Source: Bacteroidales bacterium (lineage in GTDB: Bacteria > Bacteroidota > Bacteroidia > Bacteroidales > JAADGE01). From it: a DNA stretch of 64,000 bases. The position numbers and the translations under genes are program-made. Below are positions 4,515 to 52,500 of the stretch, one piece after another. Under the pieces are notes generated by a model. The model was not told the DNA's origin. It saw only the letters and a list, made by a program, of their open reading frames with translations, and made no database searches. The stretch spans positions 1 to 64,000 of the forward strand of contig JAKISF010000014.1 of the NCBI GenBank assembly GCA_021648725.1, read 5' to 3'. Position 1 is the first letter of the stretch; every line of letters starts with the position of its first letter.

Positions 4515-5648
4515 TTATTCCGTTAATAAATTGTAAGCTCCTTTTTCTAAAAATATAGCAGCGGTATCGTTTAACATAACTTCGGTAAAACCGTTATACG
4601 TTTGCCCGGGTTTAATGTTTTTCTTTGCAAAATAATAATTATCGGCATCCTTTTCTTCAAGTTTCAAAATATAAGTTTCTGTTTCGGAATAAACAATTGC
4701 ATTTTCCGGAAGGGCGTATTTTTTAAATTCCGAGGAAATTACATCAACATTCATAAACATATTTTCGGCTAAATTTTCGGAAGTTTCTGTGTCTGTTTCA
4801 GCATAACAGGTTACGGTTTTTGTTTCGTTATTAACAGACTTTCCGATTGCTTTAATTTTACCTTCATATTTTAAATTTTCATTATCAGGCATGAAAAATA
4901 TTATTCCCTGCCCGGTTTTTATTTTAGAAATATCCTTTTCAAAAACAAAAAATTCCAGTTGCAAAGATTTAATATTTATAACTTCAAACAAATTATCGCC
5001 GGCATTTACCGATTGTCCGATAAGGCAATTATGATTACTGATATATCCGTTTATGGGTGAGGTTAAATAAATTTCAGAATATATATTTCCGTTTAGAATT
5101 TTGCCGGGGCTAAGTTTCATCATCAAGATTTTTTGTTTTAGGCCGTTATAAGTTCCCAAAGTACCGAGATATTCACTTTTTGCTGTTTCAAACTCTTTGT
5201 CGGATAAAACTTTATTTTCGTGCAATTCTTTTTTTCGTAAATAATTTTGCTTTAAATTATCGAGTTTTGCAGCAACTTCTGAAAATTCTTGCTGTAAAGA
5301 TACAATTCCCATACCGGTAATTGAACATAATTTTTGTCCTTTTACAACTTTCTGCTCCGGGGCAACAAAAACTTTTTTGACGATTCCGGGAAATAAAGAA
5401 TTAATCAGAGCTTTGCCTTTCGGTTTTGTAGAAATTTTTCCGGTTGTTCTTATTTTCTCCTTAAATATTTTCAACCTTATTTTTCCGGTTTGCATTGCCG
5501 ATCTTTCAAATTGTTTTTGACTTACAACAATCAGATTATTAGTTTGCTTTGTGCTTATTTCTTCTGTGTTTTCATTTTTATCCTGCGAACAACTTTGAAA
5601 CATGATTGTGCCTGCTAATACGAGGATAAATATTGTTATTTTGTTCAT
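4515..5648 (-). CDS. czcB: RND efflux periplasmic adaptor, CzcB/CusB type lipoprotein
   Basis: The membrane-fusion subunit should join the inner-membrane pump to the outer-membrane channel. It has a lipoprotein signal with lipobox FQSC (Cys20), then a biotinyl-lipoyl-like half (LFPGIVKKVFVAPEQKVVKGQKL), a helical hairpin around residues 110-170 (LQQEFSEVAAKLDNLKQNYL), a second lipoyl half (YLTSPINGYISNHNCLIGQSV) and beta-barrel domains. At 377 residues it is typical for the heavy-metal subgroup. The gene lies 12 bp after the pump gene on the same strand, clearly one operon. No His- or Met-rich metal tail is visible. Confidence 0.9.
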   Translation of the reverse strand: MNKITIFILVLAGTIMFQSCSQDKNENTEEISTKQTNNLIVVSQKQFERSAMQTGKIRLKIFKEKIRTTGKISTKPKGKALINSLFPGIVKKVFVAPEQKVVKGQKLCSITGMGIVSLQQEFSEVAAKLDNLKQNYLRKKELHENKVLSDKEFETAKSEYLGTLGTYNGLKQKILMMKLSPGKILNGNIYSEIYLTSPINGYISNHNCLIGQSVNAGDNLFEVINIKSLQLEFFVFEKDISKIKTGQGIIFFMPDNENLKYEGKIKAIGKSVNNETKTVTCYAETDTETSENLAENMFMNVDVISSEFKKYALPENAIVYSETETYILKLEEKDADNYYFAKKNIKPGQTYNGFTEVMLNDTAAIFLEKGAYNLLTE

Positions 5649-52143: not shown

Positions 52144-52500
52144 TTACACCATTGTAACCGGAACTTCAAAGGTAAAGCTTGAGCCTTTACCTTTTTCGGA
52201 TTTAAGTTGGGGCTTGCTGAAAAGCTCAGATGTGCGTCTATTTTGGATTTTGTGAGAAGTAGATGTATATAAATACTTCAAATTGAACAAAATACAAAAG
52301 AGATGTGCAACTGAGCAGCAAAAATTTGGTAGTTTTATTAAAATAAGTGCAAGGGGTTCAAGGTGTTTCATTCAGAAACCTTGCACTTTATCAAAAAAAC
52401 ACAAGCATAAAGTATTGAATTGCAGTACGTTTAGCGTTTTTCAGCAAGCCCTAAGATGTATTTTTCCTCCGAGAAGTTTAATATTTTTGACCATTAAACC
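52144..52500 (-). pseudogene. Remnant of a sensor histidine kinase C-terminus, split by an insertion
   Basis: Reading the minus strand and removing the inserted element together with one flank repeat restores GLMVKN-IKLLGGKIHL-KSEKGKGSSFTF-EVPVTMV and a stop at 52144-52146. This is the G2-box and C-terminal end of a histidine kinase ATP-binding domain (compare GLAISKACTELLGGKIW in the kinase at 36920). Upstream of it the frame has a shift and a stop, with only traces (TIRK near 52545), and no 5' part exists. The gene was evidently broken before or after the insertion. Confidence 0.75.
52203..52458. mobile_element. Small inverted-repeat insertion (MITE-like) with 7-bp flank repeats
   Basis: The element runs from 52210 to 52451 (242 bp). 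Its ends are perfect 14-bp inverted repeats, GGGCTTGCTGAAAA (52210-52223) and TTTTCAGCAAGCCC (52438-52451). The 7-base flanks are TAAGTTG (52203-52209) and TAAGATG (52452-52458), six of seven identical, like a target duplication. It contains no transposase frame; inside is an AAGTGCAAGG/CCTTGCACTT hairpin (52345-52354, 52379-52388). Its end sequence resembles termini of some DDE insertion sequences, though the family is not proven. Confidence 0.68.

Follow-up and report, generated by a model that had tools for sequence, protein, structure and literature searches.

Positions 52210-52451 of the window, i.e., of the whole 64,000-nucleotide stretch of Bacteroidales DNA analysed here, very probably constitute a MITE that owes its mobility to an IS5-family transposase acting in trans and that carries, as a separate module, a long hairpin (hairpin 1). 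Short length, terminal inverted repeats, a target duplication, dispersed copies and absence of a transposase are properties of a MITE, and all are seen with this 242-bp element. Read on the forward strand, with hairpin 1 coming first, it begins with the terminal inverted repeat GGGCTTGCTGAAAA (52210-52223) and ends with that repeat's perfect match on the reverse strand (52438-52451). An earlier note on this DNA had described these 14 bp as perfect, which they are, and the repeats reach 17 bp if one mismatch is allowed. The near-identical 7-bp flanks likewise are as that note gave them, that is, TAAGTTG to the left (52203-52209) and TAAGATG to the right (52452-52458), the two copies of the target duplication with one mismatch between them; 7-bp duplications are known from other copies of the element. 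No transposase ORF is found inside the 242 bp, again as had been claimed. Folded as single-stranded DNA, 52210-52451 lies 8.4 SD below shuffles.

A check for further copies in the element's own genome (G000, 66 contigs) found about 16. Two subfamilies are present there, A with a length of 242 bp and B of 232-233 bp, which are about 64% alike, and the window's copy, belonging to A, is 92-96% identical to other A copies. When one mismatch at most is tolerated, the 15-base end is matched 203 times in a sister species (G002). Among 81 complete copies from own and related genomes, target duplications are exact in 48 (40 of 6 bp and 8 of 7 bp) and present with one mismatch in a further 16, versus exact duplication in none of 486 offset controls. 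The typical duplicated target is TANNTA. At one locus (L162) an A element is nested in a B element, with duplication of TAAATA, which is positions 61-66 of B, and intact B copies therefore represent the empty site. A 2-bp or 4-bp duplication is ruled out by that same insertion, as what it duplicates is exactly TAAATA.

The window's copy, taken alone, has an imperfect duplication and so might be viewed as a chance arrangement of repeats and flanks, or as a recombination scar, with no transposition having been involved. That reading is refuted by the other copies and retains practically no probability, given the duplication statistics over 81 copies, the nested insertion and the matching ISs described below. 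Non-autonomous transposition, as the earlier note proposed, is instead supported: by the many copies, by their target duplications, by the nested insertion with a MITE as its empty site, and by IS5-family elements possessing the same ends. The insertion's being not very recent, also suggested previously, is plausible in view of the 92-96% identity of this copy to other A copies and of the mismatch in its duplication.

The element sits, as had been recognised, within what is probably the remnant of a histidine kinase, at the end of the ATPase domain. Both parts lie on the reverse strand and resemble the end of HATPase_c and kinases of the same genome: an upstream part, GLMVKNIKLLGGKIHL (52452-52500), and a downstream part ending in ..LKSEKGKGSSFTFEVPVTMV* (52144-52209). 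If the flanks are joined such that a single 7-bp copy is retained, one open frame results, GLMVKNIKLLGGKIHLKSEKGKGSSFTFEVPVTMV*, which is 48-62% identical to own-genome kinases and which matches positions 80-110 of 111 of HATPase_c (E 4.6e-4; 21 bits, under Pfam's cutoff of 26.4). The claim that removal of the element restores the reading frame thus holds to the extent that one open frame is obtained upon excision, but there is no frameshift to be corrected. As 242 plus 7 is 249 nt, which is divisible by three, both halves already share a frame, and what the insert adds, and excision removes, is in-frame stop codons. That the gene is a dying one fits with the 35 kinase codons left. Taken by itself the insertion is ordinary. 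In a search for the empty site of this very locus, none of 12 relatives from the same genus had a kinase fragment next to its slyD-like ortholog, and no empty site was obtained. Another MITE copy of the same genome (L061:1658-1889, C3) lies within a START-domain-like gene and interrupts what appears to be its signal peptide; read by eye, the flanks form a continuous frame once a single TAATTA is retained.

Of 393 genomes of the order, 12 contain the exact 16-base end TAGGGCTTGCTGAAAA. In Bacteroidetes bacterium GWF2_29_10 one such match is a full IS of 1618 bp (L194), its transposase decayed and its flanks TAATTA and TACTTA. Related transposases elsewhere in the order are bounded by ends GGGYYTGCTGAAAA or close variants and by duplications of 6-7 bp, e.g., TAAGTA on both sides (L210), TACATTA (L214) and TAATTTA (L219). 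There exist, that is, matching autonomous ISs of roughly 1.6-1.7 kb which share both ends and target with the MITE, and which come from other families of the order. Their transposase belongs to the IS5 family (NCBIfam NF033578, 379 bits versus a cutoff of 275), for which named plasmid matches include ISAcma17 and ISMae6. These same-end relatives carry the transposase that the MITE is without, and hairpin 1, for its part, is missing from the nine autonomous ISs examined.

Neither the own genome nor the genus yielded a partner transposase, in a search whose query came from another family and whose target assemblies are fragmented; the local source therefore has been lost, is unassembled, or is too diverged. 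The sole match within the genus at an E of 1e-5 or better (G012) was rejected as a partner, being a distant transposase of 27% identity. A contig scan of genomes with the GWF2_29_10 transposase returned only the source, Bacteroidetes bacterium GWF2_29_10 itself, and plasmids, phages and viral contigs yielded no relative of the element, of the transposase fragment, or of the hairpin core.

The relationship between MITE and IS extends inward from the ends. Several of the autonomous ISs possess a leader hairpin, AARTGCA..TGCAYTT, that abuts the transposase ATG, and this hairpin recurs in the right half of the MITE, about as far from the end. Hairpin 2 of the window's copy (52345-52388, reverse strand) is the counterpart of that leader hairpin as seen, i.e., as AAGTGCAAGG..CCTTGCACTT, in several related ISs. 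We infer that an IS5-family transposase would recognise ends of the form GGG[C/T]YTGCTGAAAA, acting in trans, and would insert the element at TANNTA or TANNNTA with duplication of those 6-7 bp. The right half of the MITE would then be the left end plus leader of such an IS, inclusive of the hairpin abutting its transposase start codon, while the left half would be the separate 93-nt hairpin module.

The MITE ends of the sister species are associated with a different IS as well. At least six junctions, seen at contig starts (L147, L148, L149, L151, L152 and L158), connect that IS's 3' end to position 8 of a MITE end (GGGCTTG/CTGAAAA, the slash marking the junction), and they occur at left and right ends and with both subfamilies. 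The C-terminus encoded there is weakly IS110-like (NF033542, E 0.005), with no relevant Pfam match, and it is possible that this is an RNA-guided IS for which MITE ends serve as the target.

Hairpin 1 itself (52224-52316, forward strand) was not mentioned in the earlier note. It is 93 nt in length, over a third of the element, and consists of a long conserved stem with the apical arrangement GTAT-ATAA-ATAC. A covariance model (R2) scores the window's copy at 92.7 bits and, among 393 genomes of the order, detects the hairpin in 12, which represent 10 genera and about nine families and usually have several copies; in a phylum-wide sample of 395 genomes there was no match beyond the own genome. 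Inspected matches place the hairpin nearly always close to a MITE end. Over 32 sequences, 94.9% of cells are paired, both partners have changed in 18 of 27 pairs, and covariation reaches 0.591, versus 0.240 when shuffled and at most 0.12 with slid partners, though this alignment was fitted to the R2 model, which favours the model. In an earlier alignment, made with MAFFT and comprising 16 sequences, the paired fraction was 86.4% and covariation 0.405 versus 0.191 shuffled. The co-varying of paired bases across about nine families suggests that the hairpin may have some function, that is, that it is not junk.

Such pairing could also be maintained at the level of DNA. Hairpin 1 might be a by-product, a fold-back module whose symmetry is maintained by template switching and which has no RNA function, a reading we consider rather doubtful but nevertheless a live alternative, as template switching is seen directly in one copy (L166), with one arm rewritten as the perfect complement of the other, and as switching in DNA can also give rise to paired changes. 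That hairpin repeats of another kind are found in the same apex points in this direction too. Template switching, however, should remove G-U and A-C appositions alike. On the hairpin-1 strand there are instead 105 G-U versus 12 A-C cells, an excess which suggests RNA rather than DNA, and in 15 representatives the counts are 39 versus 9 (p 1.5e-5, with cells that are not independent). A tandem U-G/G-U step, moreover, persists in 25 of the 32 sequences, and where both strands are reported the reverse strand scores lower by about 25-70 bits, against a model that was built on the forward strand.

Alternatively, hairpin 1 may be a DNA feature that transposition needs in cis, such as a host-factor site or a cruciform, rather than an RNA. 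Its position near one end in nearly all inspected copies speaks for such a feature, but we regard this as unlikely, more so than template switching, since the G-U bias is strand-specific and since two unrelated types of end carry the hairpin. The second of these types is found in two other genomes, G073 and G278, where the hairpin core is enclosed by different ends, e.g., CCTGAATTATTCAT..ATGAATAATGCGGG, flanked by 4-bp duplications (TTAA, TTAG or CTAA); R2 gives these copies modest scores of 29-39 bits, with per-genome E values from 8e-7 to 9e-4, but several copies agree. An IS1380-family IS of G073 has ends CCTGAATTATGCAT with TTAA on both sides. With its core present in MITEs having IS5-like and IS1380-like ends, the hairpin appears not to be tied to one transposon type. 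Also speaking against a need in cis is a 167-bp copy in the own genome (L007) which has lost most of hairpin 1 and still displays a perfect 6-bp duplication, albeit with a deletion that may postdate insertion.

As an RNA, hairpin 1 would act when read from an upstream gene. Where copies are found was assessed with 109 of them, with genes taken as simple ORFs, such that the counts are rough: where both neighbours were within 700 bases, 41 lie between convergent genes and 6 between divergent genes. In 10 cases the element contributes the last base of the upstream ORF, as would be the case if the target's TA and the element's G together formed a TAG. Among copies at tandem sites, the hairpin strand runs in the direction of the genes in 15 of 18 from the own genus and in 7 of 15 from elsewhere, i.e., an orientation bias that is weak overall (22 versus 11, p 0.08), clear in the own genus and absent outside of it. 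In our view the most likely role would be that of a structure serving host transcripts as a 3' end or in their processing, one which would make intergenic insertions tolerable.

More broadly, it is conceivable, and somewhat less doubtful to us than either DNA-level account, that hairpin 1 is a mobile structured RNA, borne across the order on IS5-type and IS1380-type MITEs and acting in host transcripts. Were that so, then a transposon would have spread genome-wide, e.g., a 3'-end, stability or processing element. No credible match to the hairpin was obtained with the covariance models of Rfam 15, nor was any report of it found in the literature that was searched, including with the letters of the hairpin core. 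Structural conservation that is biased to one strand, that extends over about nine families and two end types, and that has no Rfam entry makes hairpin 1 a good candidate for an RNA that a transposon has spread.

That MITEs can possess structured transcripts which affect mRNA is already known, as are IS5-type MITEs in Porphyromonas gingivalis. RNase cleavage is the means by which Correia elements, and ERIC located at the 3' ends of genes, affect mRNA (review PMC10969869). Bacterial MITEs including Correia/NEMIS and ERIC (PMC10969869) resemble the present element in being short, in having terminal repeats and a target duplication but no transposase, and in their many intergenic copies and strong predicted transcript fold. 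What differs here is one hairpin with compensatory changes, found over about nine families and with two types of MITE end. BrickBuilt and MITEPgRS of P. gingivalis (PMC4596501) similarly are MITEs of Bacteroidota whose ends match IS5-family elements, but those ends are GAGACC.. or GAGACT.., versus GGGCTTGC.. here, and BrickBuilt, unlike the present element, has target duplications that differ among copies along with an internal minisatellite (PMC4596501).

The interior of the element varies among copies. One of 376 bp (L081:1501-1876, in G004) has about 140 bp extra within the hairpin-1 loop. At the other extreme are palindromes of about 45 bp, comprising little beyond the two MITE ends, in G004 (L163:1054-1098) and G003 (L165:1304-1347), at sites that look orthologous. 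In some B elements another palindromic repeat, GTCATCGTATCA..TGATACGATGAC, is located within the hairpin-1 apical loop (L153:1090-1400; L154:931-1249 and 4819-5132; L157:1-291); this repeat occurs also as one free copy outside a MITE (L151, after position 512). Copies in G341 (L238, L244 and L229) are interrupted in the hairpin-1 stem by some 22 bp that resemble GTTGAGCTTGTCGAA.
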